Shown: piece by piece, positions 1-21,695 of the stretch
Layout: each line of letters opens with the position of its first letter
Numbering within the stretch: the stretch's first letter is position 1
Assembly (NCBI RefSeq): GCF_900114435.1
Contig: NZ_FOZK01000002.1
Location: forward strand, 310,001 to 374,000
Source of the DNA: Halomicrobium zhouii
GTDB taxonomy: Archaea > Halobacteriota > Halobacteria > Halobacteriales > Haloarculaceae
Direction of reading: 5' to 3'
Length of the DNA stretch: 64,000 nt
Program-made: the position numbers and the translations under genes
Notes under the pieces: model-generated
The model's input: the letters and a program-made list of their open reading frames with translations, nothing else
Databases searched by the model: none
Told to the model about the DNA's origin: nothing

Positions 1-1514
1 GTAATTGAAACGTTGATCTCGATCAGTCCGTTTTCGCACAACCCCTCCAGTGTTTCGACTGGGTCTGCCTCAATCTCCTCCTCGCATTCGGCCCTGATAT
101 TGGAGTACGACAGATCGGAGCTGGCTGCCGAGATCGTCAGCAGCTCCTCCAGCAGCTGGGCCTGTGGCTCTGGCAACTGCTCCCGGACTCTAGTCCTAAT
201 TTCGATGTAAGCATCGGCATAGCGATGCGAATACTCGAGGAGGGTATCAACATCCTTCTCACTGGCTGCACTTGTGAATAGGTCCGTGAAGTCCTCATCC
301 AATTCGATGTCGAACTTGTCCTTAAGCCGTCTTGCAGTCTTGATCTTCCCGACCAATCTGGAGCGCAAAGCGGTGCGTTTGTCGCTTGCCCGCTCGAGAC
401 ATTCGACCAACTCCGCTCCTGCGCTTTCTATTCCCTCGACGGAGATTGCCTCAAGGGCCCTTGATTGGCAATCTTGCGCCTCAGTGTAGAGGGTCTGGAT
501 TTTACTGGCAGCCTCCTCGAGCTCTTCAATCGCTGGCTCACCATCCGTGCTATACATCTCGACCGGGCTTTGCAGGATTTCAATTAACGCCTCTAGGCCG
601 TCTCCTACAGTCTCTATCGCTGAGGCATATGATTTGAGAGAGGGATCTGTGCTCAATTCCTCAGCAAGCAGATCCAAGATTCGTGACTGCTCATATTCGA
701 TATCTTCGGGAATTCGTTCGTATTGAGTTTCTACCCGGGCCCACGCTTTGTCGATGTCATTCAGGGCCTCTTCGATGCGTTCGTGTCGATTGTCGACTAA
801 GACTGCAACCTGCTGCAGGCCGTCCCGATCATCCACATCTTCTTTTAGCCCCTCGATCAGGACGGTCCAGATACGCTCGTTGAGTTCGTCTCCAATATCG
901 AGGTCGTAATCAAGCGTCCAGTCGCCATGCCAGCCTTCCTCTAGCAATCGTAGAGCGTCACCGATATCGTCCAGATCAGACGGTGCGTTCGCGTCTGATA
1001 TCGCTGTCCGCAGTAACTGATCTATGTCTCCCTGCAGTTTACCCAGGTCACCGCGGAGTTCGTCATGGGCGGTCTTTGCTGTACTGACCGCCTCTTCACA
1101 GGTATCAACATCGCTAATAATGACTTCTCTGAGCGACCGCTTCTCATTGCTGTCAAGCAGTTCAAGCCCGGTTGAAGCCAGCCAGCTGTCGATCTCCTCG
1201 ACGACGGATTCGGCCTTTGGGTTGTCTAATACCTCCTGAATGTCTTTGTGAACCTCTCGAACCGCCTCAGTGAATGTCTCGATTTCGCACCCATCATCCA
1301 GCAACGCCTGCAGGTCGGTCCTGACCCCATTGTTGTATGTCTCCCGGATCTGGTCGACCTGGTCGGGTTCTAATTCCGAGTCTGAGCCCAGCGTGTCTGC
1401 GAGTTCATCACGGAGTTGCTCGGTTTCCTTCTCGAGTTCACTGTGTCGCCCGATTAGGGAGTCATAGTCCCTATCCTGCGAAAAATCCACTAGATCAGCA
1501 AGGGGTGCAGTCAT
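1..1514 (-). CDS. Coiled-coil protein, third gene of ATPase operon (3' end outside window)
   Basis: The open frame starts at an ATG read leftward from 1514 and is still open at the left edge, so only about 504 N-terminal residues are visible. Its start overlaps the stop of the upstream gene in an ATGA junction, which indicates translational coupling. The visible protein is almost wholly charged and helical, with long heptad-like stretches rich in Glu, Asp, Leu and Arg. I see no Walker, nuclease or methylase motif. Because it is co-translated with a P-loop ATPase and another coiled-coil protein, a structural partner of that ATPase is the simplest inference. I do not recognise the family, and a catalytic domain could lie in the missing C-terminal part. 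Confidence 0.8.
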   Translation of the reverse strand, partial: MTAPLADLVDFSQDRDYDSLIGRHSELEKETEQLRDELADTLGSDSELEPDQVDQIRETYNNGVRTDLQALLDDGCEIETFTEAVREVHKDIQEVLDNPKAESVVEEIDSWLASTGLELLDSNEKRSLREVIISDVDTCEEAVSTAKTAHDELRGDLGKLQGDIDQLLRTAISDANAPSDLDDIGDALRLLEEGWHGDWTLDYDLDIGDELNERIWTVLIEGLKEDVDDRDGLQQVAVLVDNRHERIEEALNDIDKAWARVETQYERIPEDIEYEQSRILDLLAEELSTDPSLKSYASAIETVGDGLEALIEILQSPVEMYSTDGEPAIEELEEAASKIQTLYTEAQDCQSRALEAISVEGIESAGAELVECLERASDKRTALRSRLVGKIKTARRLKDKFDIELDEDFTDLFTSAASEKDVDTLLEYSHRYADAYIEIRTRVREQLPEPQAQLLEELLTISAASSDLSYSNIRAECEEEIEADPVETLEGLCENGLIEINVSI

Positions 1515-3214
1515 TGTTCCTCCATCAGGCCATCGATCTCGATAAGTGTGTTCTGGACACTGTTCCTTTTCTGACCCATCTGTTCGAGTTTATCAACTGT
1601 TCCCCCGAACTGTTCAATCGGTTCACAGAGGGACTCAAGACGTTTTCGGCACTCAGATATCTGGGAGTCCCATTCGTCGAGCTTACTTTGAGGTGATCCA
1701 TCCTCGTCGGTGAAATCAATCTCGGGAAGTTCATGCCGTAGCTGTACAATTTCTTCGTCCCATGCCTCCTCGAGATTCTCGGTCATTGTTGCTTGGTCAG
1801 GTACGTCAACCTCGACACCCGTTGCCTCGAGACGTTCATAGAGATCCAGTAGTTCCTCTACCTCCCGCTGACAGCGGGATTCGAGAGCTTCAATCTCCTC
1901 AAGGAGTTCATCGACGCGTGTTCGATGGTTAAATAGCGTCTCTCGGTACTGCTTCAGGTTGTACTCGAGCGTCGTGAAGACGCTTGTGCGCACGGCCCGA
2001 TCAAAGCCAAAGAGGAACCTGATAATAAGTGAGTTCGTCTCGTCTACCAGCCTGACCAACTTCTCGTATGGATCCGCCCTGCCAGTGTCTACCTGAATTT
2101 TTGTGTCCTCGAACTCGTCGGCATGAGCCTCCAAGGATGTAAGCTCCCCGTGGAGCTGCTTGATCTCAGATTCAATGGACTCTTTCTGGGACTGATATGT
2201 CGAATTGACCGTATCACTGTTATTCTGGATTAGGCGCGTCCCATTGATCGCCCTTAGCAGGCGTTCAGCGATTTTGGTTGTATTACCCTGGAACTGGCTT
2301 GTGACAAGCCGTTCGACCCGCTGTTCGCTGCTGTAAAATGTTTCTAGAGGTGTATCTTCTCCGGCATCATCTTCGGAGTCATCGCTATCCTCATCTGTCA
2401 CCCCGGTCTCGATGGGGATATCAGCCGTTTCATCGAGCAATCGCAGGAGACTGGATGTTGCACTCCGATTATACAAATTCCGTGCCGTGCGAAATTCGGA
2501 ATTGTAGCTATCCTTGTTGATAAGATAGGATATCTTGATGATTCGACTGTACCCTGCGACACCCCCACTCCCGCCAGAGAGCATCTCGCTCTGATCGATC
2601 TTCTCCTCTCGGATGTACCTGAGCAGGCTTTCGACACCATTCTCGTCTTCCGTTGAGCCAGCAGCCAGCAAAAGAAAATCGAGGATTACCTGATCGGTCA
2701 CCACGTCTTTTTCTAGCCGTTCGTTCATATCCCGAACGTCTGGGGTGTCCAGATCGACTGGGAAGAGATCCGCTAAATTCTCCTCGAAGCGCTCTGAGTG
2801 CTCTTCGAGTAAGGTTTGCATAGTTTCGATCAGGCGAGGAAGGTAATAATCAACTTTCCGTTCATCTTCGTCGGCGATATAATCTCCCGTTACGGTCTCC
2901 TCGAGAGGTTGATCGGGATCAGTCTCCAGTAGCGCATAGAGGAGACTCGTGGTGAAGGTATTCAGCCGCCGTTCGTCGACGCTGACCACGCTCAGCTGAT
3001 TGATGTCGTAGCTCTTTCGGGCAGTCGGCTCCGTGTTCTCGATGATTTCGACCGCCTCATCTGTGGTCTCAGAAGCGTCCTCACCGAACAGGACGACCAT
3101 GAATTGCTGGTTCGGGGTCAGTCCCTTCTCAGAGACTGTCTCCTCCAAGAAGGGATTGAGCAACTCACCAAGTTGATGTGCATCCGATGGAACCGGGTAG
3201 ACGTATTCAGTCAT
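1511..3214 (-). CDS. Coiled-coil protein, second gene of ATPase operon
   Basis: This 567-residue protein starts at ATG 3214, inside the stop of the ATPase gene, and its own stop overlaps the next start. The N-terminal half (about 1-250) looks globular and acidic. Residues 270-290 form an Asp/Glu-rich linker, and about 330-560 are predicted long coiled coil, with repeated Leu/Ile spacing and stretches of charged residues. No enzymatic motif is visible. The tight coupling on both sides suggests fixed stoichiometry with the ATPase and the third protein. SMC-like or scaffold proteins of multi-gene phage-defence systems have this look, but I cannot assign it to a named family. Confidence 0.85.
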   Translation of the reverse strand: MTEYVYPVPSDAHQLGELLNPFLEETVSEKGLTPNQQFMVVLFGEDASETTDEAVEIIENTEPTARKSYDINQLSVVSVDERRLNTFTTSLLYALLETDPDQPLEETVTGDYIADEDERKVDYYLPRLIETMQTLLEEHSERFEENLADLFPVDLDTPDVRDMNERLEKDVVTDQVILDFLLLAAGSTEDENGVESLLRYIREEKIDQSEMLSGGSGGVAGYSRIIKISYLINKDSYNSEFRTARNLYNRSATSSLLRLLDETADIPIETGVTDEDSDDSEDDAGEDTPLETFYSSEQRVERLVTSQFQGNTTKIAERLLRAINGTRLIQNNSDTVNSTYQSQKESIESEIKQLHGELTSLEAHADEFEDTKIQVDTGRADPYEKLVRLVDETNSLIIRFLFGFDRAVRTSVFTTLEYNLKQYRETLFNHRTRVDELLEEIEALESRCQREVEELLDLYERLEATGVEVDVPDQATMTENLEEAWDEEIVQLRHELPEIDFTDEDGSPQSKLDEWDSQISECRKRLESLCEPIEQFGGTVDKLEQMGQKRNSVQNTLIEIDGLMEEQ

Positions 3215-4887
3215 CGCGGATCCTCCGACATGATATCGCCGAATTCGCTGAGACGTGCCCCCGGATTACCCATTGAACTCAGCAACTTCACTAGCTCGGA
3301 GAACTGTTCGGATTCGGTCCTAGCCGTCCCAGCAAATGTCAGCCGGGGATTCGTGATCAGGCTCGGGAACACTGCAACCAGCGAACCCATGGCTGGCCCG
3401 AGGTATCCATCGACCGACAGGTTCTCTTCCGACTGCTCGCTGAACAGTTCAAGAAAGTCACCGAATTCTCGGGATAGAGATGATTCATCCGAATTGTCAA
3501 CATACTGTGCCAGCTCATAGAGGAAATCGATTGTCTCCTGATGTTCCTCGCCTGCCTCCTCGAGTGCGAGATCGTGGACTCGTTCGGCAAGGGGGGAGAG
3601 CATTCGGTCCTTGCAGACTTTTCCCTGCTGGAACGTGACTGTGGAAGCATCTCCAAAGACTATCTGGCCGCCCCCGTTGGCAATCGACTGGAGGAACCGA
3701 TTGACGTATCTCCGGATCACTTGGTCGGAGACGTCGTACTCCTCGTAGCTGTCATGGGATTCGACCCCATTGAGGAACGCCCTAGTGACTGCCTCGATGT
3801 CTGTCAGCTCTTCGGCGAGCATCACCTTCGGGCTCATCCCCGACAACCGATCAATCCAATCATCATTCCCGAAAGTCTCTAGCTGCGTCGGTGCGGGTGT
3901 AAAAATACTATATGCGGTAAGATCACGAGCATCATGCCCGATATCCCCACAGTATACCTCCAGATCCTCAATTGAGAGAATACTGACCCGGGACATTGTG
4001 GTCCCTGGAATCTCCCCCAGGGTAGCGTATGAACCATCCACGTTGCCGGTATGGGATCTATATGCGTTCCTTGCCGTTTCGAGCCATCCGGGACGCCCAC
4101 GTGACATCCACCATATGAAGTTTCGTTCAGTCACCGGGAGGTTCTCACCGAAAACTTCCTCGATGTTGTCGGGCTTGATAATCGGCAGCACTAGGGTGTC
4201 AACACGTCGGTACTCTGCTTCGCCGATCTCGTGGACGCTGGCATAGCCGAACCCTCCTATGAGATAGAACCGCGACTTTCCCGACTGAACCTTGTCGACC
4301 GTATCACGTAGCGGTCCGGTTGTAGACCGTATCATCTCCTCAAGTCGGTCGTAGCTCTCTTCCATCTCATCGACGATGAGTGTCACCTCTTCAGTTTGAC
4401 TGGTAATATCTGCAAACTCTTCGACAGTCAGGCCGAGCTGGTCTGCATATTCCTTGACACCGGTGATGCGGCCAGAATCGAGCAATAGGAGGTCCCGGGT
4501 CAGTTCCTCGTCCTCCAGAATCCGTTTATGAATACGATCAAGTTCCCGCTTGACGAGAGTCTCGACTTCAGTGTGGAATTGTTCCTGGGAGATATTCTGG
4601 ATCTCTTGGGGATATTCGATGTGTGTCGCGACGCTGTCAAGGAGCTCCCCAAGGGAGAGGAACAGCGCCGGCTGTCCAATCTCGCGGTAGGAATACTTGT
4701 AGAGATGGGTCAAAAGCTGGGTCTTCCCTGCACCGATCGCACCAACTACATACGAGGCGTTCGAGCCTGCTTGAGAAAACTCGGCGATATTGGCTTCGCC
4801 CCGCTCACGCCGATCGCGGTGGCGATCGGTCATATCTTCCCACTCGGTCTCAAGAGTGGGGGTGCGACGAACTCCGTTCTCGGACAT
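3211..4887 (-). CDS. P-loop ATPase, first gene of operon
   Basis: The protein has 558 residues. Residues about 47-62 contain a clear Walker A (GAIGAGKT followed by hydrophobics). A hydrophobic strand ending in LIVDEMEE near residue 170 fits Walker B with a catalytic Glu, as in AAA+/STAND-type ATPases. A sensor-like segment (YLIGGFGYAS) follows. The C-terminal third is helical without a recognisable domain. It is the promoter-proximal gene of a three-gene leftward operon and is divergent from the 1222-residue HEAT protein gene, with 249 bp between them. DptF of phosphorothioate-dependent restriction and BREX BrxC are other defence ATPases working with coiled-coil partners. I see no specific signature of either, so the call stays at ATPase. 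Confidence 0.88.
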   Translation of the reverse strand: MSENGVRRTPTLETEWEDMTDRHRDRRERGEANIAEFSQAGSNASYVVGAIGAGKTQLLTHLYKYSYREIGQPALFLSLGELLDSVATHIEYPQEIQNISQEQFHTEVETLVKRELDRIHKRILEDEELTRDLLLLDSGRITGVKEYADQLGLTVEEFADITSQTEEVTLIVDEMEESYDRLEEMIRSTTGPLRDTVDKVQSGKSRFYLIGGFGYASVHEIGEAEYRRVDTLVLPIIKPDNIEEVFGENLPVTERNFIWWMSRGRPGWLETARNAYRSHTGNVDGSYATLGEIPGTTMSRVSILSIEDLEVYCGDIGHDARDLTAYSIFTPAPTQLETFGNDDWIDRLSGMSPKVMLAEELTDIEAVTRAFLNGVESHDSYEEYDVSDQVIRRYVNRFLQSIANGGGQIVFGDASTVTFQQGKVCKDRMLSPLAERVHDLALEEAGEEHQETIDFLYELAQYVDNSDESSLSREFGDFLELFSEQSEENLSVDGYLGPAMGSLVAVFPSLITNPRLTFAGTARTESEQFSELVKLLSSMGNPGARLSEFGDIMSEDPR

Positions 4888-5136: not shown

Positions 5137-8100
5137 ATGAGCTCGGAGACTAATACGCGGATTTCACGGCTACTAGATCGCTATCGTGATCTGGAACCCG
5201 ACCGACGCCAGCACATTATCAAGGAACTGGAGCGGTTTAGAAGACACCGTGTAGAGGGGCTTGTTCCGTATTTCGAGTCACTGGTAAAACTTCTCAGGTG
5301 GGAGTCTGGCCCCAACTCAGACCATCTGGCAAAGCTGCTGATTGACTGCCTCAGCGACCATCCTGATCGCATTGAGACGGAGACCTTAATTGCTGTTAGT
5401 GAACTCGCTTGCTCGCCGGAGCCGCCAGTTAGGGAACTCGGCCTTAAGGCGCTCAGGAGACTCTATGAACAAGACTCGGAAGCTATCGAGGCGCCGTTCA
5501 CCTCCAGTGAAATAAGCGATTGGATGGATGAGGGGGCAGACAGGCGGGCGCTGGCCTATCGTATTCTGGGGGTGACTGTCGCTGACGACGCGGTCGAAAA
5601 GCTCGCTGATGCCTACAGTAATGAGGAATCCCTTGCCAAAAAGGCCTCTGAAGCAGCGCTAGAAGATATCGCGTCGATATCTACCTCGTGGCTGAATGGG
5701 CAGGATCCACTTGCCGGGGCCAAGAACTTGGAACACTTGGCACAACGAGTTCCGCAAATCGCCGTGGAACAAGAGGCAGCATTGCGAGAAGGATTGACTG
5801 CTGACTCGAAGTCAGTCGTCTCTCGCTGTGCAGCCGCCCTTATCAAGCTCGGTTACTCCGAGTATGGCGACCAACTTGATGCTGCAGCGCTGCTGGAGAG
5901 GCTATCAGATTTCGATCGAGTTGCGGCCGGTCGAGCCACTGGGGTTTGCATCGGGTCTCAGTCCGCTGTTGACCCCGACCCAGTTCAGCAACTACTGAAC
6001 GGCATCGAGGCTAAACGGACCAGAGACAACCAACGAGTCCAGTTAGTGGCTCTCCTGGAAGTATCCAACCAAAAACCCGAGTCGGTCGCATCGTATGCAG
6101 ACCGGCTCCGAGAGCTCAACAGCGGTATCACTGGTCAGGCGCGGAAATATTATATCGATCTGCTCGGGAACATCATCAGCCACTCAGAGAATGAGGGGGC
6201 TGTTGCCCCGTTATTGCTTGAAGAACTCAATAGCACGAATGACGAACGCGTAAAAATGGCCTGTAAGGAACTTTCGGAGACGAATCTCTATCCACTCCCA
6301 CAGGTCGTCCACATGGCCCGCAACAGGGGAGAGGAGGAGATCAGCACCCCCGCCCACAAAATCTTCAAGCGAAGCCGACCGCCGACATTTGATGTCGCCG
6401 ATCAGCTGGCCGTTGACAAAGCCGAGGGCAACTTGGAAGCACTGGAATCAAACCTGCGATATCAGACCGAGCCGGGTCGATGGGATCCGGTCTTGCTGCC
6501 GGCCTACGAGCGCCAGCGCCTTGCGACAGTCCGTGAACGGTTTCGGCAAGGGAAGGGCGGCTACACTCTCCTACCGCATGATGTCCCGGAGATGGGAATT
6601 CTGGCTGCTGCTGAACTCGCCCTGGAGGGACTCCACCATGATCGGATGTCCGTGGACATCGTGGTCTATTCGCCCGGGACATCAAATCTATGGGGAACCT
6701 TCAAAGACATCCAGATGGCGTTCCGTAAGTTCGGTCTGTGTTCGATACCCGGGATAACAACTGCAGCACGACCACTAGATGAGGTCGTAACCGTCTCCCG
6801 GGTGACCGATAGCGGGATCAAGCCATGGGGGGAACCGGCCTCCGATAACAAGATCATTCTCACCAAGTCGCTCATGGATATTGATTCGATCGACCCAGAT
6901 GCAGTTGTCTGCAACTTCCTCGGGAGACGACCCAGCGAATTTGAGCCCCAGCTCGAGGAGGAAGACAACGTCCTCGAGTCCTATCCGGTGTTCAGTCTCT
7001 ACCCATTCACCGCGAAGATCGAGGCTCCTGGGACTTGGCCAAAGTATGGCTATCCGGAGAGCATCCCGGAAGCCACCGAACAGCTACTTCCGGGGATCCC
7101 CGATCAGGCGGATTTCGGAAGATGCTCAACGTCAAGGTCGGTTAGTACCCCTGCCAGTAACGTCATCGAACAGTTGAGGCAGCTGGCGACCGATCGGTCA
7201 CTAACAATTGAACGTCTCGAAACAGATGAAATCATCGGCCGGCTCAAAACCATGCATCGGCTGGCAATAGAGCTTGATGGCGATGAGACTGAACAGGTCG
7301 CGAGGGCCTTCAGAAAGCAGACCCGATTTGTTCAGAGCCTCCCAGTCCCGCTTGACACGTATGATGAATGGGTCCGTGAAGAATCAACAGGCAGGGGCCG
7401 ATATGCCTCAGATCCATCGCACCAGCGGATTGATGACATGGACTCTCTAAAAGAAGACCCAGCCAGTGCGATGGTGCCTGGTGCAGTCTATGATTATCTG
7501 ACCGAGCTTCGTGCATTGTTTAAAATTCTTCGCAGGGAGAACCCGACCTATACGCGCCTTCTCAGGGAAATCAGGGAACAGATTGATACAGAGGACCGAC
7601 TCGCGGTGCTATTCCAGAAACGGTCCATGAAACAGGCCTTCGAATACGCATTGCTGAATGATATCGGGCAGACGGCGGGTGAGCTCAAAGACAGGGGTGT
7701 CTATATCCTCAGACCCGACGAGCTACGCAAAGTAGGAGAGGTCGACGATGTCATCATGACCAAGCCGCTGGCCCCATCACAGACACAGTTTTACATGGCT
7801 CCACTATTTAAGTCAATGCAGATCATCGTTTACGGGGAGAACACGTCTCAGTACGTAAGCAATGGTATTGAGGAACGCCTAGAGACTCTGCGAGCCCGCC
7901 GTGAATTGCCTGCCGATGCCGATTGGCCACGGCCGCCGGTAGTCGAGACAATATCAAATGACTCGAACTCGGACCTGCAGCTGGGATCCCAGGACGGATC
8001 TGACAGTGAACTCCGGCAGTCCGAAGACAACGGGGCCGTTGAAGAAATCTGGACACAGTTCGAACCAGTCGACCAGTCCGAAGCTGGATCTTCCGATGTC

Positions 8101-8805
8101 AATAACCCCTCCACTGCCCGGCCCAGCGCGGAAGAATCATGGAAAGTTCAGATTCTCACCGAGAGCGGGGTTGAACTCCTGAAACCCTCCACCGAGTCGA
8201 TTCTGGTCGAACGGAACGAAGGGCCTCTCTCAGGCAATCAGTACGTCTGGACCACCGCTGGTGATCTGGAGCCAGGCGATAATTTCCTCGTGATTCCTGA
8301 CGAGGTCCGCGATCAGGTTTTTGAAGAGGCTCTCGAGGCTGTATACGGTGATGACATGGGGGGAACTGATCTTGTTGATGGGCTCGAGATATGGTGGGAA
8401 ACACTGCGAGACATCCATTCAGAGTACGATGATCTCGAGACGGTCTATACACTCCTCTCCCAGACCGAGCTCGAGAAATCGCGAGCTAACGTGGTTGAGT
8501 GGTTCCGGGCCGTCGAGCAAGCAGAGAAGCCACTTGACCTCCCGACGAATTCGGACTTCCGGATCGGCCCGAATAAGGTCAATGACATCAAGACGATTGG
8601 GAAGGCCTTCGACTATCAGGATCTATTAGAGAATGCAACGGCAATAGGACGAGCTATGCGCCTATCTCGGGGCGAGAGCCGGCCACAGGGTCAGGAACTC
8701 AATGAGTTGGTTATCTCGCAACTCCTGAACCCCAGCTCAGATTTCGCAAGAGACGTAACCGAATACTCAGCTGGGACGATCCGCCATGTCGGGAAACAAT
8801 ACTGA
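5137..8805 (+). CDS. Large HEAT-repeat protein, possible DrmE-like defence factor
   Basis: This 1222-residue protein has two parts. Residues about 1-400 are HEAT/ARM-like helical repeats (recurrent pairs of helices with Leu and Ala spacing). From about 440 to 900 there is an alpha/beta region with hydrophobic strands (DIVVYSPGTSNLW near 505, then KIILTKSL and DAVVCNFLG near 575-590) that resembles a decayed helicase-like fold without Walker A. The C-terminal 200 residues have a LEPGDNFLVIPD strand, a helical segment beginning with WW, and a winged or HTH-like end with an IGPNKV motif. This arrangement recalls my memory of DrmE of class 2 DISARM, which also travels with a cytosine-5 methylase, but I could not run a search. 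The HhH-methyltransferase gene follows 146 bp downstream in the same direction. Confidence 0.85.
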   Translation: MSSETNTRISRLLDRYRDLEPDRRQHIIKELERFRRHRVEGLVPYFESLVKLLRWESGPNSDHLAKLLIDCLSDHPDRIETETLIAVSELACSPEPPVRELGLKALRRLYEQDSEAIEAPFTSSEISDWMDEGADRRALAYRILGVTVADDAVEKLADAYSNEESLAKKASEAALEDIASISTSWLNGQDPLAGAKNLEHLAQRVPQIAVEQEAALREGLTADSKSVVSRCAAALIKLGYSEYGDQLDAAALLERLSDFDRVAAGRATGVCIGSQSAVDPDPVQQLLNGIEAKRTRDNQRVQLVALLEVSNQKPESVASYADRLRELNSGITGQARKYYIDLLGNIISHSENEGAVAPLLLEELNSTNDERVKMACKELSETNLYPLPQVVHMARNRGEEEISTPAHKIFKRSRPPTFDVADQLAVDKAEGNLEALESNLRYQTEPGRWDPVLLPAYERQRLATVRERFRQGKGGYTLLPHDVPEMGILAAAELALEGLHHDRMSVDIVVYSPGTSNLWGTFKDIQMAFRKFGLCSIPGITTAARPLDEVVTVSRVTDSGIKPWGEPASDNKIILTKSLMDIDSIDPDAVVCNFLGRRPSEFEPQLEEEDNVLESYPVFSLYPFTAKIEAPGTWPKYGYPESIPEATEQLLPGIPDQADFGRCSTSRSVSTPASNVIEQLRQLATDRSLTIERLETDEIIGRLKTMHRLAIELDGDETEQVARAFRKQTRFVQSLPVPLDTYDEWVREESTGRGRYASDPSHQRIDDMDSLKEDPASAMVPGAVYDYLTELRALFKILRRENPTYTRLLREIREQIDTEDRLAVLFQKRSMKQAFEYALLNDIGQTAGELKDRGVYILRPDELRKVGEVDDVIMTKPLAPSQTQFYMAPLFKSMQIIVYGENTSQYVSNGIEERLETLRARRELPADADWPRPPVVETISNDSNSDLQLGSQDGSDSELRQSEDNGAVEEIWTQFEPVDQSEAGSSDVNNPSTARPSAEESWKVQILTESGVELLKPSTESILVERNEGPLSGNQYVWTTAGDLEPGDNFLVIPDEVRDQVFEEALEAVYGDDMGGTDLVDGLEIWWETLRDIHSEYDDLETVYTLLSQTELEKSRANVVEWFRAVEQAEKPLDLPTNSDFRIGPNKVNDIKTIGKAFDYQDLLENATAIGRAMRLSRGESRPQGQELNELVISQLLNPSSDFARDVTEYSAGTIRHVGKQY

Positions 8806-8951: not shown

Positions 8952-11180
8952 ATGGCAGAATCGTGGGATCTATCTCGAGATGACATTGCTGGGCTTACGG
9001 GGGTGTCAGAGTCAGAGCGAGTAGCCCAGTCTGGCGTTGTGTCCAGAAATATTGATTTCGTAATCGATGGACTGGCGGCAGAGGACTTGGCAGATACCAG
9101 CCGAACATCTTGTGGCTGTCCTGCAGCCACCCCGAAACTCCTCGCTCGTCGGAGGAGTACTGGATCGGAGGATAGTTTCCCGTGTTGTTATTCAACGATA
9201 GCGTCCGCTTGGACGGCCAGAGATGTAGCAAACAGCTGCTGTGATGATCCCCTGCATGGAAGTACTGATCCACTGGATAGCGTCGCAGCAGTCGTTATCG
9301 CGGATAATGATGTAGACCCCGCAGAGCGCTACCAAGAACACTGCTGGCGGAAACTTATTGACAGCCTCCGCAACGAATGCGGTGACTGGAACTCGATAGC
9401 TGATCTTAAACGACGCAGGCTCAATGTCATTCTGCAGGAAAATTCCGACGGCCGTGGCCTCAGTGTTGAACGATCCATCCGGCTACGCAAGTTCCTTGAG
9501 GCTGTCCAAGAGTACTCGCGCACAGATGGGGTCTCCCTGTCGGGATTACCGCGTCTGAGCTATGAGACACTGGTAGATGAATTCGCCTCATTTCCAGGCA
9601 TCTCACGACGTGATGCCTGGTGGATCATGCTGACAGTCTATGAGAAGCCCGTCTGGCCCACTTCCCAGTACACAGATCAAGTACTCGTTGCACTCGGTCT
9701 CCTGTCCCCTGAGGAATATGCTATCGACAGTCCTCGACGCGAAGCGATTGAGGACCGATTCTCGGACCGACGTCTGCCTGTTCTCCATCGGTTGCTCGCT
9801 AGACACGGGATAGACGCAGGTATGGAGCCCTGTAGTGATTCGTGCACAATCAGGAAGTTCCTGCTCACCTACCGCCAAGAACGCCAGTCAGAGGCTCGAT
9901 CGGGCAAGAAGGCTGTCGACCTCTTTGCCGGCGCCGGTGGGCTCTCAGCTGGGTTCAAGCAGGCCGGATTCGATATCCAATTTGCCGTCGACAAATCTGA
10001 ATCAGCTACAGATACCTATCGCCTCAATCATCCGGAACTCCCGCACGAAAACGTGCATACTGGGGACATCAATGATGTCGTCGAGGAGGGTATTCTCACT
10101 GAGCTTGCCGAAGACACCGATGTCGTGATCGGTGGCCCGCCCTGCCAGGCCCTGTCGATTGCGGGCTATCGCTCTCGTCTTGCCAACGATGAGGATTACA
10201 CCCTGCTCGAAGATTCACGGACAACTCTCTATCAGCAGTATATTGCTGCCATCGAGCAGCTCAACCCAGAAATTATCGTCATGGAAAACGTCGAGGGTAT
10301 GATCTGCGAGGTTGGCGACTCGGAACTGAAGGTCTCAGAAATGGTCCTGGATGGGCTCGACGAGGCCGGTTATAATGCTAAACTTAGATTACTCGACTGC
10401 TCGGAGTTTGGTCTGCCACAGAACCGAGATCGAGTTATTGTCTTCGGTGTAAACCGAGAAGCCGATGTTGAGACGAGCCCTGGGGCGTTATTTAGTGCAC
10501 TGTATGACAACCGGACCGAGGAGACAACGATCAGACAGGCACTGGCCGGCCTGCCAAGACTCGAACGGGGCGAGGGTGGCAAGATCATGATTGGGGCCAA
10601 CAGAGGCCGACGGAGTGAGTATGTTAGCTGCGCTGGTATTTCTGTCCCCTCACACTTTACCTATAACCACCGCGCCAGGAGCCATCCAAAGCCGAAGGAT
10701 CGCAAGCTCTTCGATGAGGTGATGGAGCCGGGCATGGACAGCGCCGATGTTGTGTACGGCACGGATCGAGGCGACCTCATAGACTATGACATCGGGACGG
10801 AGGACAATCCCCGGTTCACGGACAAATACCGGATGTTAGACTGGGAGGAGCCGTCCCCGACGATCGTTGCACACCTACAGAAGGATGCAAACGGGTTTAT
10901 CCTGCCGGACTATCACCGGTACTACACCCACTCTAGCAAGGAATCCAAACCTGAACGCAATCGCGGACTAACACCGCGAGAGGCCGCTCGTATTCAGTCG
11001 TTCCCAGATGACTTCATCTTCTTGGGTGCGTTCACTGACTGGTTCCAGCAGATTGGTAATGCGGTTCCACCACTAATCGGCCAATTCGTTGGGAAAGTCC
11101 TTGCTGACGAATTGCGGCAAGAGTCGTCCGAGACAGCAGAAACACCGATCTATCGACCTCGCATTTCTACCGACGACTGA
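8952..11180 (+). CDS. Fusion of HhH-GPD (endonuclease III-like) domain and DNA cytosine-5 methyltransferase
   Basis: The protein has 742 residues. Residues 320-735 are a complete C5 methyltransferase: motif I VDLFAGAGGLS (322-332), motif IV GGPPCQ with catalytic Cys398, motif VI MENVEG (444-449), motif VIII QNRDRV (490-495), motif IX TPREAARIQSF and motif X QIGNAVPP. Upstream, residues about 130-305 match the layout of endonuclease III/MutY proteins: a helical lead-in, the hairpin FPGISRRDAWWI (214-225), the strand KPVWPTSQYTDQV, a GL pair at 249-250, and LHRLLARHGI before a Cys pair at 294 and 298. Against Nth, the catalytic Lys of VGRKTA aligns with Arg220, and the Asp of VDTH aligns with Ser238. 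The four-Cys iron-sulfur motif is also missing. The first 110 residues are Cys-rich and unassigned. Confidence 0.9.
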   Translation: MAESWDLSRDDIAGLTGVSESERVAQSGVVSRNIDFVIDGLAAEDLADTSRTSCGCPAATPKLLARRRSTGSEDSFPCCYSTIASAWTARDVANSCCDDPLHGSTDPLDSVAAVVIADNDVDPAERYQEHCWRKLIDSLRNECGDWNSIADLKRRRLNVILQENSDGRGLSVERSIRLRKFLEAVQEYSRTDGVSLSGLPRLSYETLVDEFASFPGISRRDAWWIMLTVYEKPVWPTSQYTDQVLVALGLLSPEEYAIDSPRREAIEDRFSDRRLPVLHRLLARHGIDAGMEPCSDSCTIRKFLLTYRQERQSEARSGKKAVDLFAGAGGLSAGFKQAGFDIQFAVDKSESATDTYRLNHPELPHENVHTGDINDVVEEGILTELAEDTDVVIGGPPCQALSIAGYRSRLANDEDYTLLEDSRTTLYQQYIAAIEQLNPEIIVMENVEGMICEVGDSELKVSEMVLDGLDEAGYNAKLRLLDCSEFGLPQNRDRVIVFGVNREADVETSPGALFSALYDNRTEETTIRQALAGLPRLERGEGGKIMIGANRGRRSEYVSCAGISVPSHFTYNHRARSHPKPKDRKLFDEVMEPGMDSADVVYGTDRGDLIDYDIGTEDNPRFTDKYRMLDWEEPSPTIVAHLQKDANGFILPDYHRYYTHSSKESKPERNRGLTPREAARIQSFPDDFIFLGAFTDWFQQIGNAVPPLIGQFVGKVLADELRQESSETAETPIYRPRISTDD

Positions 11181-11184
11181 CCTG

Positions 11185-12558
11185 CTATCTCTTCTGGTCC
11201 GTCCTATTAACGTCAAACAACTCTTCCAGTAGTGCTTTTCCAAGGACCTCTGCAAGGCGGGGTGGCACGGCATTGCCCACGATTTTGAACGCCTTGGTGA
11301 GGGGAACCGGGAATTCAAAAGAATCTCGGAACGATTGGAGTCGAGCTGCTTCTCTGACGGTCAGTGAGCGCGCTTCGCGGGGATGGATGAACATGTGACC
11401 GTCCTTTTCGAGATGGGCCACGATAGTTGAGGCCGGCTTTCGGGGATGTTGTTTCTTGTACTTATCCTCAAAGATATCTTGACGATAAGGCTGGAGGTCC
11501 TGACCAACGTCACCTATGTCCCACCCTACGCCCTCGCCGAGTAGCTTGTACAGTGAGAGATCATACATATTGTGACCTCGGGAGCGATGGTTTGTCAGTG
11601 CCTCGTCTCGGGATTCATCTACGTCCCGTGCCCATTCTTGGTACTCAGTCAGGGGTTCCATCTGGTATTCGGTGGCCTGTTCGGGAATTGCAAAGTTCGA
11701 GTCATCGGAAGTTGGGCCGCCAGGGCTGACCGGTGGTAGATCCAGAATGGCCTGACCGACTGTGATCCACGGAGACTTTCTGGGTTGCTCCGGAACAATT
11801 TCGTCGAAATCCGGAACATCACCACTAACGACCTCCTCCATCGTAGCCTGCACGGTCTCTTGTTCTTGACCTACTGTACCCGTCCGTTTTAGCTTTGTTT
11901 CGTTATCGTCTTCGGGCTCTCTGTGGGTCTGCCAGTGTTTGAGATTCGGGTTGTCCCTGTTCAGCCGGTTCCCGATAAAGAATGCCCGCTTACGTCGCTG
12001 CGGAACCCCATAGTCCGCTGCATCGACCACATAGACATCAACATTGTAGCCAATCGCCTCCATCTCGGAGACGATAACATCAGAAACGATCCGGCCCCCT
12101 GCGTTCTCCGAGTTGATGATCCCCGGGACATTTTCCATAATGAACGCCCCAGGGTCGTAATAATCCACGAAGCGAAGAAATTCTTGGTAGAGTTCATGAC
12201 GATCATCCTCTTCAGGCGAAGTCCCCTCGACCGAGCCAATCTTGGATCTGCCAACGCGAGAGAAGGTAGGGCAGGGCGGGCCGCCAGCGATGAGATCGAC
12301 GTCACTTGGCCCGATATCGAATCGCGCTACCTGCTCAGATGGTACCTTGTCGTCTTCAGCTAGTTCGATCCCCCCATCGGGATCGACATCCCGAATGTTT
12401 CGCTTGATAGCGACGCCATCGTGATTAGCTCGGTAGGTCTGGACGGCCTCCTCAGAATGGTCGATGCCCCATATCACATCGAATCCCGCGTCACTTAGCC
12501 CCTGTGAGAGACCGCCAGCGCCGCAGAACAGGTCTATCGCAACAGGTGTGTTACTCAT
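11185..12558 (-). CDS. DNA (cytosine-5-)-methyltransferase
   Basis: This 457-residue protein is a stand-alone C5 methyltransferase with all key motifs in order: VDLFCGAGGLS near residue 8, GGPPCP with the catalytic Cys near 95, MENVPGI, PQRRKRAFFIG, then LTVREAARLQSF and IVGNAVPP close to the C-terminus. The target-recognition region (about 220-370) is long and acidic. It is tail-to-tail with the HhH-methyltransferase fusion gene, with only four bases between the two stops, so convergent transcripts will overlap. It probably modifies a host sequence to protect it from a linked restriction activity, or it complements the partner methylase at a different site. Specificity cannot be read from the sequence. 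Confidence 0.93.
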   Translation of the reverse strand: MSNTPVAIDLFCGAGGLSQGLSDAGFDVIWGIDHSEEAVQTYRANHDGVAIKRNIRDVDPDGGIELAEDDKVPSEQVARFDIGPSDVDLIAGGPPCPTFSRVGRSKIGSVEGTSPEEDDRHELYQEFLRFVDYYDPGAFIMENVPGIINSENAGGRIVSDVIVSEMEAIGYNVDVYVVDAADYGVPQRRKRAFFIGNRLNRDNPNLKHWQTHREPEDDNETKLKRTGTVGQEQETVQATMEEVVSGDVPDFDEIVPEQPRKSPWITVGQAILDLPPVSPGGPTSDDSNFAIPEQATEYQMEPLTEYQEWARDVDESRDEALTNHRSRGHNMYDLSLYKLLGEGVGWDIGDVGQDLQPYRQDIFEDKYKKQHPRKPASTIVAHLEKDGHMFIHPREARSLTVREAARLQSFRDSFEFPVPLTKAFKIVGNAVPPRLAEVLGKALLEELFDVNRTDQKR

Positions 12559-14996: not shown

Positions 14997-17900
14997 TCAC
15001 CGGTATTCGAAGCCGACATAGAACGAGCCGCCACGGAGCTTCTCCCAATACGGGTCGCCATCGGAATCGAAGTCCGTGTACGCCACGAAGTCCGTGATAT
15101 CGCGGAGTTCGATTCCGGAATCCCGAGTGTGCTGAGCATCCCAATTCGTCGGCAGTACCACTAACCGCAGTAGATAGCGGTCGACAGATTCGATACTGTC
15201 TTTTGCTCCGTGTTCGCCTAGTGTAGGACCAGGCCGCCTTGCCATTCGGAATTCGTTCCCGGTAAGCTTGATGCGCCCACTATCAGCACGATTCGGATGG
15301 ACTGCCTTCACTTCGACTCGTCGCATCGAATCAGGCCTCCAGTCGGTGTCGGCGTCCACCGACATGGGGAGACCGGCGAACGGATCGATGTAATCGAAGC
15401 CGGGCCCCCGTTCTGCAGAGGTGTCGAACACCGCATGAAACGCACGGCGCGCCGGTTCAGAATCCTCAACCTCGGAAGCACAGAGATACCGCCTGAGCAC
15501 CGACACAGTATCCTCCGAACTATTACCCGTCTCGAACTGGATGGTGAGCTTGTCGAGCGGCTTCAGCCGCCAGTTCTCGCAACTTCGCCAACGCTCCACT
15601 TCGTCGACGATAGCTTCTCTGCAGGTACTTGACGAGGTACGGAACCGGTCCCAGGCCCGGCTGAGACAAATGAGCTCAGCATCTCGACCACGGCCGTCTG
15701 AAATCTCTGCATTCTGGCGGCCGCTGGACTGTGTATCATTGATGCTTGGGGCCTGCATGTCGTCACCGGGTTCCTCTGGTTCAAATGTCGTGGACTCAAC
15801 ATTATCTTCGACGACGTCGTCGACTTCGTCGGCGTCGTTCGCCACCCAATCCAGGGTTTTCTTGCGGCGCTGGGATTGCTGGGACGGCGAACGCTGCCCC
15901 GCATCCTCACGTAGCGCTTCCTGGAGTACCTCTTGAATCTGGCCCTTGGCTTCCGATGGCGTTGCAACAGCGTCGATAAGGGACTCCACCTTCGAGAGGA
16001 TGTCCTGGTCTGTGGTTATCGAAGCGTCCCTGAGTGCCTCATACCGGTCTTGGCACCACTGCTCGACCGCCTCAATGATTGCCATAGGGACGATGTCGTC
16101 GTTCGATGCTTCCGACTCGATATCGAGGAGTTCGACGACGAACTGTGACCGAATGGACTGAGGGAGCTTCTCGCCATTCGGCACGATCTCGCCCACAGTG
16201 TCGAACGCGGAGGGCGGAGTCGCTTCCTCCACGGCCTGGAGCGCGACGACGATGGCATCATCGTTGATACGGTCCCGCCGGTCGAGCTGCGAGAAGAACG
16301 CCTCTACCTTTTCAACTGCATCGAGATACAACCGCAACTCGTCTATATCGCGAGACCCTCGTAAGGTTCTCAGCGAACGCCACTCGTCTTCATCCAGTAC
16401 CCTCTCCACTCCATCATACTCTCGGAGCAGCTGTGCAAGCTTCAGTTGCCGGGTGATATGGTCCTCTGCCGTTGCGGCTTCGATACACTGTTCCGGCGGC
16501 AACCCAACCGACTCAAGGACAGCCATCCACTCCTCGAGGAACGAGTGAGTGGAAGACTCGGGCGGGTTGGTCAATGCGTCGAGCGCCGCGCCGTGGTCGC
16601 CCACAATATCCGGTGGCGACGCCCCCGCATTTTGACTCCGAACGAGCGCCTCCAATGCCGAGTGAACCCGCTTGAGTTCCCGAGTCTCATAGTCTTCTCG
16701 ACTTTTTTCGATTTGTTCGATCGTGTCCTTATACTCCGCTCTTCCAACTTCGATCCCCTTCATGAGGATGTTCTCGAAGACATCACCCAGCCCATAGTTG
16801 TCGAGAATCTGTTCAAGCGCATCCGCAGCTAAGTACCGCGGAATCTCTTCTACTTGCCGCCAATCATCCACTGCCTCGGAATCAGAGCCATCGCTAGGAG
16901 CGTGCTCTTCGATGGCTCGCCCGTAAACCGCGATACGAGACGGCACACGACCGTCTTCACTATCAGGAATCCATTCAGCAGAGTTCCGGCCGGCCGTGTC
17001 TTCGACGTCCGCGACGCCGAGTGGACGGCTGAATAGCTCATCTAACGTCTCGTACGTCTCTTCGACGTTTGGATTGGTCGCCTGCTCCTTGTAGCCTGCA
17101 ACTAAGATTTCGTGGCGTTCGTTCAATGCCTGCTTCAAATCTTCTAACGCCTTATGTTCGGCGTTGGTCGGAAGGGTGTCGGCAGTCACGGATTCCAGCT
17201 CTGGGTTCTCTGACTGGACTGCGATTCCAAACGGCGGGGATGCAGACTCTGAATCATCAACTCCATCGCCGAGGATATCTGCGATGGCACTGGCTTCCTG
17301 TGCTGGCCGCTCGACGATTGCGACGGTCGCGTCCGGTGCCCGGTAGCGTTGGCGGGCGTACTGTCTAAGGTTCTCTTTGAAAATCGTAGGAACGATGTCC
17401 TGCGTCACCCCCGTGGAACCTGTTGACTCTCCCTTATCGCCGCTGATGGCAAAAACATAGGACTCGCCGTGCCACCGCACTGGCAGTCGAACTCCGAACT
17501 TCTTGATATCCCGGCGGATCCACTGGATTTGCTGGTCGTCATCGGAGACTCTGTGAGTAATGTGGGACATCGATTGCAGGCGTCGCATCAACGAATACAC
17601 TGGATCGATGTACTTCGATGCCGACCATTCACCGACTAACGGCTGAAGTCGCTCCGTCCCAACTTCGAATCGGGTAGACTGGCAGTCCGTGTGCTCATTG
17701 ACGAACCAGCTGAGTCGTTTCGCGGCTTCGGCAGGGGTCAGCGATTCGATAGGCCCGGCGGACAACTCGCCCAAGAGCCGTTGAACATCGGTTGCTTCGA
17801 TTGGGTTTACTCCCGCGACAGAATCGTTCGCCTGGTTTGATACCTTCTTGACGTCTGCTCGGGGGAGATACTGAGCAGCACCCCTTGCATCTTGTTCGGT

Positions 17901-20900
17901 TATCAACTGCGTCGCTTCGAGTTCCGGACCAACATCCAATTCGAGGTCGCCTTCGATCGGCCAGAGTGGACTAGTCCGGAGCTGGGCCATCCCTAACGCC
18001 GGGATAGTGTGGTGAGGACTACCCAGTTGGTGACTGTAGTACGGCCCATTACACAACCAAGCCGTATCCGCAATCGTTTCCTCCATTTCCGGCCAGACGA
18101 GGACCACTGCATCCCGGAACGCGCGTTGCTGCGACGCTGCTAATTCATCGTTCAATTCCGAAAAGTACCACCACGTCGGAATCGCCAAGTCACTGTGCTT
18201 CTTGTCCCATCTATCGACTCCGTTCTTGAGCCATCCTTCCTGACATCTCCCAGAATGACTTGCGCTGAACACGGGATGGTGCTCGGCTTGCCAACATAGC
18301 TGTCGATAGGTTTCGAGAAGGGGTTCTGGCGGATCAATCTGGGTGTCAGCATCAATCTCCACGTTCGACGGGTCCTTTGTGAGTTCTTGTACTGTCTCCA
18401 CTGATAATGCGCCGGTTCGCTGGTCGCTGTCGTCCAACCCTGGAAAGAGCCATCCCCACTCAATGTGGGGGCCGACCTGGACACCGAGGTGTAGCAGGAA
18501 ATCAACGAGCCAGCGATCCTGGCCCTCGTCGTGGCTGTCGACTTTATCTCTAATCGGCTGCCACCGGTCATCCTCCGGTGGCGCTAAAACAGGCGTCGTC
18601 TGCGACCGGAACTGGTCCGCGTGCTCAATCGCGCCAGCCCAGCGCCGCAGCGCCTCTACTCGTTCGGCTACCGCGTCCTCGTTGTTGTCGACGAACGGGC
18701 TGTCAGGCTCCGGTTTCCCCTCCACCCGTGTCGCAACGTCTTCGAATTTTGCGGCCCAATTGACACCAAAGACCAAATCTTCTGCCCGGTGATACCCTCC
18801 GTCTTCAGCCGGCAAGGGAAGCGACCGGACGTACCGGCGTTCGAGGAACTCTGTGTTCTCCGGTTTGGTCGTGAGTGGCTCACCAGTCAACAGGTTCTCG
18901 ACTTCATCGTAGCGGCGGTGATGATATGGTTCTGGAGCCAACCACTGCGCCGGGTTCGTATCGGCGATTCTCCGATACAGGTCCAAGAGGTACGCAATAA
19001 CCGGGTCCGGTTCGTCAACAGGGTCGGCTGAATAGCCGCCCGCATCTGCAGCAATCCGGAGATAGAACCCGGCCGGACTCTCGAGTTTCCGGGTCCCCCA
19101 CGCGTTATTGAAATTCGCCAACTCCCCTGCCCACTTTGCGACCGGAGGTATCACATATACCGGTAACTGTGATGGCGGTGCTGGAAGACGTGTGGTGGTG
19201 GATTCCTGGGCACCTCCCTCATCGGCAACTTCACGGCGAAACACGATGCGATCGTTTCGCCGGTGGCGTCCATCCTCGCTCTGTCCACGACTGGGTGACG
19301 CTCGAACCAGCCGAGTCACCTGTACGCCGGACTCTACTTGTCCGTCGGAGTCGTCGACTGCCTCTTGGCGTTCTGCCGGGAGTAACGGAACAGCGGCCGT
19401 ACCTAAGTTCTGTGCGGCATCCGTGATATTGCTGTCATTGTCGTCTCCGTCGTCTGTCCGATGCCGGTCGAACGCGTCGATTACAGCAGCGAAATACTCA
19501 GTCGCCAAATCTGAATCGTCGACGTCAACGTGCCACCAGTCGGATGACCGGTCACGCACCGATTCCGTCGAATCGAGTCCACCTGCTTCACACAGAATCG
19601 TCACCCAATCTGGACCATCCTGGGTGTCTGGAAGTCGATCAATAACGTCAGATAGCCCGATTGCAGAGAGGATGCTGCGAACCCGAGATTGGCGACTTTC
19701 GGGGAGGGCGCCGTGCCACATTTCGCCGTTCGCAATCGAGGATTCTGTTGGGAGCGGTGCGGCGGCCGTGTCGAACGCGTCTTGACGCAGTACCTCGAAC
19801 GCCGACAATCGTTCTGGCGCCAGCAATGTCTCCGTCGGCCGGAGCGTCCCACCAGCTGCCGCTGGAACCATCGGCGATTCCCGCAGCGCCGCTAATGTAT
19901 CTTCGACGAATTCCCTGACAAGTCTTCCCGCAGCCTCGTCGTCGCGATCCGAGGCTGGCTCCGTCACCGGCGCCATGACCCACGGCATCCACTCGTGAAA
20001 CAAGGGATGAGAATGCGAATACGTGCTGGATATCTCGTCCAGATCTGGGGGAGCAGCACAGTCTTCGGCAGCAGTGCCAATCAACTCTGGTAGTTTCTCG
20101 AGAAGGTCCTCGTTTTTGGCCTTGTCCGCGAGTTGCTGGCGGTCGAATCCAACTTCGAACGGGGCGTGGACGACGAACGGAAATGGTGTCGACGCCTCTG
20201 AAATCGGGTAATAGAGATGCAACGGCTCTGCTTGCTCTTCGTCGTCCCACCAGTCTGCTCCTGGTTGCGGCGCTTCACAGAGAACCCGGAGCTCCGAGGA
20301 GGCCTCCACATCGGCAGGCGTTGCAGTATCGCCGCCGAGCCACTCGTAGTCCTCTGGGTCAAGCGTCTCGGAGTACCGCCGAAACCAATGTGATTTGACG
20401 TTGCTCCCCGCATCACGCTCCTCAGTCACCCGCACGACCGAGCGCTGAACGTTCGAATCAGAATCGACAACCCCCTCGTCGGTCTCCAGAACTGAGAGCT
20501 TCCGCTGGTCTCGAAGCTCCAGGCCTTCAGTCGAAGAGTCGGTTCCGAATCTCAAGAATTCGATTTCCTCGATGTCCTCCAGAAGCACCAGTGTTGCAGC
20601 CGAAAACGACTCACACTCACGCCAGAGCTCGTCCTGTTGACTCGCCGATTCCGGCCCATCGAAGGTCGAGCTCTGGCGATTATCATCGAACTCGGCCGCT
20701 GCCGCCGAATCCTGTTGTTTGAGTTGCTCGTAGGTCCCGTCCAGTAAGCTGTTCCACAAGTCGTCATCATAATCGAGTTCGACGACACTCCGATACCGGC
20801 CGGCATGGGGGGTGAGTTGGTCTAATGCCGCATCGGTAACGTTGAGGGCTTCCCGTTCTGTGTCCCCCCCGTCAAGTAGCAACTCTGCAAGGTCGCGGCC

Positions 20901-21695
20901 AGGGCTCGCCGAGGTGAACCCATCAGTATCCGTGAATGGGTACCGGAATAGTGACAACCGCGGTAAATCCGCAAGTACCTGTGCTGGCTCCGGCGGCGTC
21001 GGTGGTTGGTCGGGCCGCTCGATCTCCAAGATTCTCTTAACATCCACGTTGTCGGAGACAGGTGCCTCAGAAGAATTCCGGAGTAACTCAGTAATAATCT
21101 GCTGGTATTCGCCGATCTCAGATGATTCAACTGCGTCCTCTATCTGTTGTCGGCGGTCGTCGTCGGAAAGAATCTGATTGTAGGCGTCCAGCAGCATCAG
21201 GACGCTGCGGCCTCTGGAGAACCGTGCCTCGATGCGATGGTTGTTCAGGACAGAGCGGATGGCGAACTGATCACCGCGCTGCAGAATCGATTTCAGTCCG
21301 ACACCTTTCTCGCCGATGGCGCCCTTATCCCTGGCTTTCTTCGAGCGGCCGAGCCCCGTAACCGCCTCGAAGACACCTTCGTCGTGTAGTTGGAACGGGC
21401 GGCCCGTGTTCGCGACGAGGAGGGCCTCCGGCGTGACGAGTACTGCTACGGATTGGGTTTCGGGAGTCGTCTCGTCGTCGCGAATCGCGTCTCTTGCGTT
21501 CTGAATCAGTTCGAGGACTGTTCGGTTCTCGTGTGTGGCGGCGACAACCTGGTCACCGATTCCGAGATCGCCTTCCTTGCTCCACCGCGTTTCGTTAGTC
21601 AGTTCAGCAATTAGCTCACTGTTTTCGTCACTGCACTTGTCGGCAAGTTGTTCTGAAGGTGTGTTAGTACTCACGGAGATTCTATTCCTGATCAC
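14997..21695 (-). CDS. Giant GHKL ATPase-DUF3883 protein, predicted defence nuclease
   Basis: This 2232-residue protein starts at GTG 21695. Residues 61-138 form a sacsin/Hsp90-type GHKL ATP site: LELIQNARDAI (N box, Glu62, Asn66, Asp69), VANTGRPF in place of the usual DNG box, and GEKGVGLKSIL (G2). A central region of about 1800 residues is helical and acidic without recognised domains. The C-terminus matches the DUF3883/NO VEIN pattern: GFDYIDP near 2099, VEVKAVH near 2127, then LTGNEFRMAR. The D...E-x-K spacing fits a PD-(D/E)XK nuclease fold. Proteins of this design occur in prokaryotic defence islands, and the integrase-flanked position beside a GmrSD gene supports that role. ATP-gated cleavage of invading DNA is inferred. 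Confidence 0.9.
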   Translation of the reverse strand: MIRNRISVSTNTPSEQLADKCSDENSELIAELTNETRWSKEGDLGIGDQVVAATHENRTVLELIQNARDAIRDDETTPETQSVAVLVTPEALLVANTGRPFQLHDEGVFEAVTGLGRSKKARDKGAIGEKGVGLKSILQRGDQFAIRSVLNNHRIEARFSRGRSVLMLLDAYNQILSDDDRRQQIEDAVESSEIGEYQQIITELLRNSSEAPVSDNVDVKRILEIERPDQPPTPPEPAQVLADLPRLSLFRYPFTDTDGFTSASPGRDLAELLLDGGDTEREALNVTDAALDQLTPHAGRYRSVVELDYDDDLWNSLLDGTYEQLKQQDSAAAAEFDDNRQSSTFDGPESASQQDELWRECESFSAATLVLLEDIEEIEFLRFGTDSSTEGLELRDQRKLSVLETDEGVVDSDSNVQRSVVRVTEERDAGSNVKSHWFRRYSETLDPEDYEWLGGDTATPADVEASSELRVLCEAPQPGADWWDDEEQAEPLHLYYPISEASTPFPFVVHAPFEVGFDRQQLADKAKNEDLLEKLPELIGTAAEDCAAPPDLDEISSTYSHSHPLFHEWMPWVMAPVTEPASDRDDEAAGRLVREFVEDTLAALRESPMVPAAAGGTLRPTETLLAPERLSAFEVLRQDAFDTAAAPLPTESSIANGEMWHGALPESRQSRVRSILSAIGLSDVIDRLPDTQDGPDWVTILCEAGGLDSTESVRDRSSDWWHVDVDDSDLATEYFAAVIDAFDRHRTDDGDDNDSNITDAAQNLGTAAVPLLPAERQEAVDDSDGQVESGVQVTRLVRASPSRGQSEDGRHRRNDRIVFRREVADEGGAQESTTTRLPAPPSQLPVYVIPPVAKWAGELANFNNAWGTRKLESPAGFYLRIAADAGGYSADPVDEPDPVIAYLLDLYRRIADTNPAQWLAPEPYHHRRYDEVENLLTGEPLTTKPENTEFLERRYVRSLPLPAEDGGYHRAEDLVFGVNWAAKFEDVATRVEGKPEPDSPFVDNNEDAVAERVEALRRWAGAIEHADQFRSQTTPVLAPPEDDRWQPIRDKVDSHDEGQDRWLVDFLLHLGVQVGPHIEWGWLFPGLDDSDQRTGALSVETVQELTKDPSNVEIDADTQIDPPEPLLETYRQLCWQAEHHPVFSASHSGRCQEGWLKNGVDRWDKKHSDLAIPTWWYFSELNDELAASQQRAFRDAVVLVWPEMEETIADTAWLCNGPYYSHQLGSPHHTIPALGMAQLRTSPLWPIEGDLELDVGPELEATQLITEQDARGAAQYLPRADVKKVSNQANDSVAGVNPIEATDVQRLLGELSAGPIESLTPAEAAKRLSWFVNEHTDCQSTRFEVGTERLQPLVGEWSASKYIDPVYSLMRRLQSMSHITHRVSDDDQQIQWIRRDIKKFGVRLPVRWHGESYVFAISGDKGESTGSTGVTQDIVPTIFKENLRQYARQRYRAPDATVAIVERPAQEASAIADILGDGVDDSESASPPFGIAVQSENPELESVTADTLPTNAEHKALEDLKQALNERHEILVAGYKEQATNPNVEETYETLDELFSRPLGVADVEDTAGRNSAEWIPDSEDGRVPSRIAVYGRAIEEHAPSDGSDSEAVDDWRQVEEIPRYLAADALEQILDNYGLGDVFENILMKGIEVGRAEYKDTIEQIEKSREDYETRELKRVHSALEALVRSQNAGASPPDIVGDHGAALDALTNPPESSTHSFLEEWMAVLESVGLPPEQCIEAATAEDHITRQLKLAQLLREYDGVERVLDEDEWRSLRTLRGSRDIDELRLYLDAVEKVEAFFSQLDRRDRINDDAIVVALQAVEEATPPSAFDTVGEIVPNGEKLPQSIRSQFVVELLDIESEASNDDIVPMAIIEAVEQWCQDRYEALRDASITTDQDILSKVESLIDAVATPSEAKGQIQEVLQEALREDAGQRSPSQQSQRRKKTLDWVANDADEVDDVVEDNVESTTFEPEEPGDDMQAPSINDTQSSGRQNAEISDGRGRDAELICLSRAWDRFRTSSSTCREAIVDEVERWRSCENWRLKPLDKLTIQFETGNSSEDTVSVLRRYLCASEVEDSEPARRAFHAVFDTSAERGPGFDYIDPFAGLPMSVDADTDWRPDSMRRVEVKAVHPNRADSGRIKLTGNEFRMARRPGPTLGEHGAKDSIESVDRYLLRLVVLPTNWDAQHTRDSGIELRDITDFVAYTDFDSDGDPYWEKLRGGSFYVGFEYR

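Follow-up and report, generated by a model that had tools for sequence, protein, structure and literature searches.

A degenerate endonuclease III-like domain fused to a C5 methylase in haloarchaeal DISARM loci

The window analysed here, a stretch of 64,000 nucleotides from Halomicrobium zhouii, contains on its plus strand a 742 aa open reading frame (8952 to 11180) that is uninterrupted from ATG to stop and joins an N-terminal Cys motif, a degenerate HhH-GPD domain, and a C5 methylase. Residues 1 to 106 (8952 to 9269, +) hold four conserved cysteines, Cys56, Cys78, Cys96, and Cys97, a putative metal site; the last two are adjacent in the window copy (CC), whereas the relatives have CxC. The HhH-GPD-like core, a homologue of endonuclease III (Nth), spans residues 107 to 300 (9270 to 9851, +). 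It includes a degenerate helix-hairpin-helix (residues 213 to 226; 9588 to 9629, +), where Arg220 corresponds to Nth Lys120 and Ser218 to the second Gly, and a GPD loop (residues 232 to 242, KPVWPTSQYTD; 9645 to 9677, +), where Ser238 corresponds to Nth Asp138. A residual Cys294-Cys298 pair (9831 to 9845, +), found in 16 of 19 fusions, lies at the place of the four-Cys iron-sulfur site of Nth. The C5 methylase domain (residues 320 to 717; 9909 to 11102, +) matches Pfam DNA_methylase at 5e-61, and its catalytic motifs are complete (DLFAGAGG, GGPPCQ, ENV, QNRDR, and GNAV). In the relative from halophilic archaeon DL31 (CP002989.1, L143), the fusion is annotated as starting at locus position 12445, yet the match begins at 12001; the annotated gene, Halar_0500, omits the N-terminal part.

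Three minus-strand genes open the window; after them come a gene of the DrmE family, the fusion, and another C5 methylase gene. The first three encode a 505 aa protein, a coiled-coil-like protein (1511 to 3214, -; a 41% relative occurs in the G054 DISARM locus, L134), and an AAA-ATPase-like protein identified by a weak match (3211 to 4887, -; a 50% relative adjoins drmA-B-C in the same locus). As a set, these genes (window 1 to 4887, -; L134:8546-13370) stand beside drmA-B-C in two haloarchaea. The DrmE-family-like protein (1222 aa; 5137 to 8805, +) scores below the curated cut-off and has relatives in the fusion-bearing DISARM loci L033, L035, and L139, where no methylase besides the fusion was labelled within the stretch examined. 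The second, unfused C5 methylase (457 aa; 11185 to 12558, -) has 52–54% identical relatives in L134, L135, and L037. Further along lie a giant protein of 2232 aa whose N-terminus weakly matches sacsin (14997 to 21695, -; SACS 0.003) and a GmrSD-type (type IV) restriction enzyme (22619 to 25192, +; Pfam GmrSD_N 2e-26), the latter marking the area as a defence island.

The fusion gene is part of a DISARM antiviral locus. Just left of the window edge (the window starts at 310001 of the contig), drmA, drmB, and drmC occupy C2:303811-309913, and together with a Mig-type glycosylase gene they stand in a row over C2:302909-309913. With drmA/B/C recognised by PADLOC, drmA was present in 18 of 19 fusion genomes and in 30 of 373 others (p=2.6e-17 over 392 genomes, in a test that ignores shared ancestry). 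Depending on the locus, the fusion is partnered by DrmE, by a 900-residue protein with a weak GHKL-ATPase match, or by DrmMI. The GHKL-like family (905–960 aa; HATPase_c_3, 4e-4) adjoins drmA or the fusion at L032:5849-8581 and in L036, L141, L142, and L135; it has no PADLOC model and could be an unrecognised DISARM component. In L135 (G154:C1:2127001-2147000) the fusion, a second C5 methylase, and a 910 aa member of this family occur together, and no drmA was detected in that genome at E<=1e-40.

The Mig-type HhH-GPD T:G glycosylase gene upstream of drmA (C2:302909-303694; L040:8909-9694) was missed by the original prediction, as was the DISARM setting. A close Mig-type gene occurs in 12 of 19 fusion genomes, compared with 9 of 373 others (p=5e-13, again ignoring shared ancestry), and it adjoins the fusion or sits upstream of drmA also in L031, L034, L036, L137–L139, and L142. 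In many fusion loci it retains its own catalytic residues; it is broken in L030 (two pieces with intervening ORFs) and in G172 (a TGA stop), and seven of the 19 fusion genomes have no close Mig homologue. PADLOC labels such neighbours 'type II nicking endonuclease', but we dropped the Vsr identification because their sequences are Mig-type HhH-GPD glycosylases. Haloarchaeal DISARM loci thus often carry a T:G glycosylase of their own, presumably as a guard against mutations caused by 5mC.

A survey of homologues, as the original prediction had proposed, disclosed 18 further haloarchaeal fusions with the architecture of the window among 392 genomes searched, so that the two-part enzyme is present in about 5% of the haloarchaea sampled and its architecture is not a chance event. 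Viral contigs and phages yielded no relative, a plasmid search returned three haloarchaeal records only, a contig scan with two peptide patterns, which missed known members, found nine haloarchaeal loci, and one phylum sampled outside the haloarchaea gave no fusion. These searches hint that the fusion may be absent outside haloarchaea.

No Pfam HhH-GPD (PF00730) match above the cut-off was found in any of 14 fusion members, and a PDB sequence search with the N-terminal region gave no match. Residues 1 to 312 searched against 293 haloarchaeal genomes recovered 17 full fusions, that of the window included, and five weak matches; the three of these that were inspected (L021–L023) proved to be endonuclease III encoded on its own (E 3e-5 to 4e-4). 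A family profile found further Nth proteins at E 1e-8 to 1e-10; the non-fusion matches aligned from the profile search of the 392 genomes are standalone Nth-type proteins with G[VI]G.KTA and VDTH motifs. Comparison of 18 fused domains with 16 standalone Nth-type sequences by hhalign gave a probability of 98.6 and E=1.2e-15, while reversed, column-shuffled, and neighbour-family controls stayed at E>=0.03. Kinship of the fused domain with Mig was considered and dropped, as the hhalign match was not significant (E=0.03). An AlphaFold2 model of residues 1 to 318 was of moderate quality (pLDDT 69.6, pTM 0.70), and the 50 PDB matches listed for it by Foldseek were all HhH-GPD proteins, the best among them D. 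radiodurans EndoIII-1 (E=8e-4, probability 1.00, with modest TM-scores of 0.36/0.46). The full-length prediction was poor (pLDDT 62), its methylase half too poor to show a domain interface.

Profile alignment and the predicted model together confirm that residues ~107 to 300 carry an HhH-GPD fold homologous to endonuclease III, and computationally the N-terminal half is shown to descend from that enzyme. The original prediction of an endonuclease III-like fold joined to an intact C5 methylase was therefore upheld, the fold by hhalign and Foldseek, with no unrelated fold among the matches listed, and the methylase by Pfam. Nor is the region a target-recognition extension of the methylase: C5 methylases have their target-recognition domain between motifs VIII and IX, and the HhH-GPD domain precedes motif I.

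To evaluate the catalytic and DNA-gripping elements, we aligned the 19 distinct haloarchaeal fusions (the window and 18 others) over their whole length. Nth Lys120 is not matched by Lys in any of them. Nth Asp138 is matched by Asp in 16 of 19, the exceptions being Ser238 of the window, Gly in Halorhabdus salina, and Asn in Salinarchaeum laminariae. The earlier hand mapping of the two catalytic residues to Arg220 and Ser238 was thus correct for the window protein; across the family, Lys is lost throughout but Asp is not, and at the Asp position the window copy is the outlier. Asp242, to which attention had been drawn for its closeness to the catalytic position, is indeed conserved in 18 of 19 fusions, but its counterpart in Nth is a variable position without a catalytic role. 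Within the hairpin Gly-h-Gly, the first Gly is retained in 18 of 19 and the second in only two, its replacement often being Glu or Asp. The LSQ intercalation loop is present in 15 of 16 Nth sequences and in none of the fusions, which according to hhalign have ~7 residues inserted at that place; likewise, the four-Cys pattern is found in 16/16 Nth sequences and 0/19 fusions. New to the fusions are the invariant residues Trp223, Trp224, Lys232, Trp235, Pro236, Glu267, Arg273, and Arg280 and the conserved Cys motif at residues 56 to 97, and the GPD loop is highly conserved among them.

The residue at the Asp138 position may be kept for structure. Ser, Asn, Gly, and Asp are all common helix N-cap residues, and in the AlphaFold2 model Ser238 immediately precedes a predicted helix (residues 239 to 248), so a structural role of this position is possible.

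The fused HhH-GPD domain is, in all likelihood, non-catalytic, and docking or regulation is a role to which we give about an even chance. With similarly balanced confidence, we interpret the fusion as a DrmMII-type methylase bearing a non-catalytic pseudo-glycosylase module that serves as a docking or regulatory surface. In Serratia DISARM, DrmAB is activated by unmethylated DNA and its ATPase is reduced on 5mC DNA (PMC9142583). Given this damping by 5mC, the methylase half of the haloarchaeal DISARM protein most likely serves to label the host's DNA as self. In the N-terminal half the endonuclease III fold is retained, but the catalytic Lys, the LSQ loop used for base flipping, the second Gly that binds phosphate, and the iron-sulfur cluster are gone; this half would most likely act as an accessory surface for docking or regulating the methylase, by way of partners within the DISARM assembly. 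It appears that an immune system has taken over a defunct repair enzyme for its self-marking methylase. Against this interpretation, Asp in 16 of 19 fusions exceeds what would be expected of a site under fully relaxed constraint, Lys is not needed by monofunctional HhH glycosylases, and the seven fusion genomes without a close Mig homologue and the broken Mig genes noted above leave some loci without that separate enzyme.

A non-catalytic module that reads or bends DNA, helping the methylase to find or distort its sites as Mag2 sculpts abasic DNA, is a possible but rather doubtful alternative, and our best reading places a docking or regulatory surface ahead of it. Mag2 (4b21) is among the listed Foldseek matches, and the retained first hairpin Gly and the conserved GPD loop would suit such a role. 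The idea, which the original prediction had offered as one option, is weakened by the frequently acidic replacement of the second hairpin Gly and by the absence of the LSQ loop in 19/19, with the insertion at that place. Net charge had been considered as a further argument against DNA contact and was dropped, since the core and haloarchaeal Nth differ too little, the core being the slightly more acidic of the two (-5.8 and -4.2 charges per 100 aa, respectively).

We consider it improbable that the domain acts as an altered glycosylase of the monofunctional kind, in which Asp238 would serve most members to remove deaminated 5mC (T:G) or to attack unmethylated or modified viral bases. The prevalence of Asp and the dispensability of Lys speak for this, as do the recurrence of T:G glycosylases in these loci and the lack of one in seven fusion genomes. 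Ser, Gly, and Asn at the catalytic position, together with the missing hairpin Gly, LSQ loop, and cluster, speak against it. The related suggestion of a domain repairing 5mC deamination is also unlikely, because 12 of 19 fusion genomes have a separate Mig-type gene, which leaves less need for repair by the fused domain. A bolder version, to which we give a slight probability, is that in Asp-bearing members the N-terminal domain could be an active glycosylase with new specificity, one protein both methylating and excising wrongly marked or modified bases; if true, the Asp-bearing fusion would work within DISARM as a base-excision restriction-modification enzyme made of a single chain.

It is highly improbable that an old gene fusion has merely left the domain behind as an inert remnant: several catalytic elements are lost and sequence identity falls short of that in the methylase half (0.47 versus 0.61), but the domain is entire in all 19 members, has many invariant residues, and evolves at a dN/dS of about 0.12–0.21 (0.04–0.17 in the methylase half; close pairs alone), under purifying selection and maintained rather than decaying.

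DISARM, C5 methylases, and the HhH-GPD fold are each of known kinds. Their combination, in which a C5 methylase conserved in DISARM carries a degenerate endonuclease III domain at its N-terminus, did not turn up in the openly licensed literature searched, including surveys of haloarchaeal and archaeal restriction-modification (PMC10273834, PMC6471742, PMC10609329, PMC12707154, PMC12839542, PMC9266487); an earlier description outside that literature is possible. If the docking or regulatory interpretation is right, the self-marking methylase gains a pseudo-enzyme domain in DISARM, where accessory parts are poorly understood, and this domain offers a concrete target for asking what connects the methylase to the 5mC-responsive DrmAB sensor.

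Among known systems, endonuclease III shares with the fusions the HhH-GPD fold, a colinear sequence, and the Asp position kept in most of them; the fusions differ in lacking its catalytic Lys, LSQ loop, and four-Cys cluster pattern, in having mostly lost the second hairpin Gly, and in adding the N-terminal Cys motif and the methylase. DrmMII of DISARM is likewise a C5 methylase encoded with drmA, drmB, drmC, and in some loci DrmE, but PADLOC DrmMII models match the fusion only from about residue 300, leaving the N-terminal 300 residues as an extra part. Mig.MthI-type T:G mismatch glycosylases are also HhH-GPD proteins encoded near a 5mC methylase; in contrast to the fused domain, Mig is a separate protein with catalytic residues and has its own gene in many fusion loci. 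Mag2, which is not known to perform base excision, differs in being standalone, eukaryotic, and unlinked to methylation. It has the HhH-GPD fold in common with the fused domain and is a DNA-binding glycosylase homologue according to its PDB entry title. Finally, the PabI restriction glycosylases also tie a base-excision fold to a methylase in immunity, but PabI has the HALFPIPE rather than the HhH fold, is encoded by a separate gene, and is active (PMC10273834).
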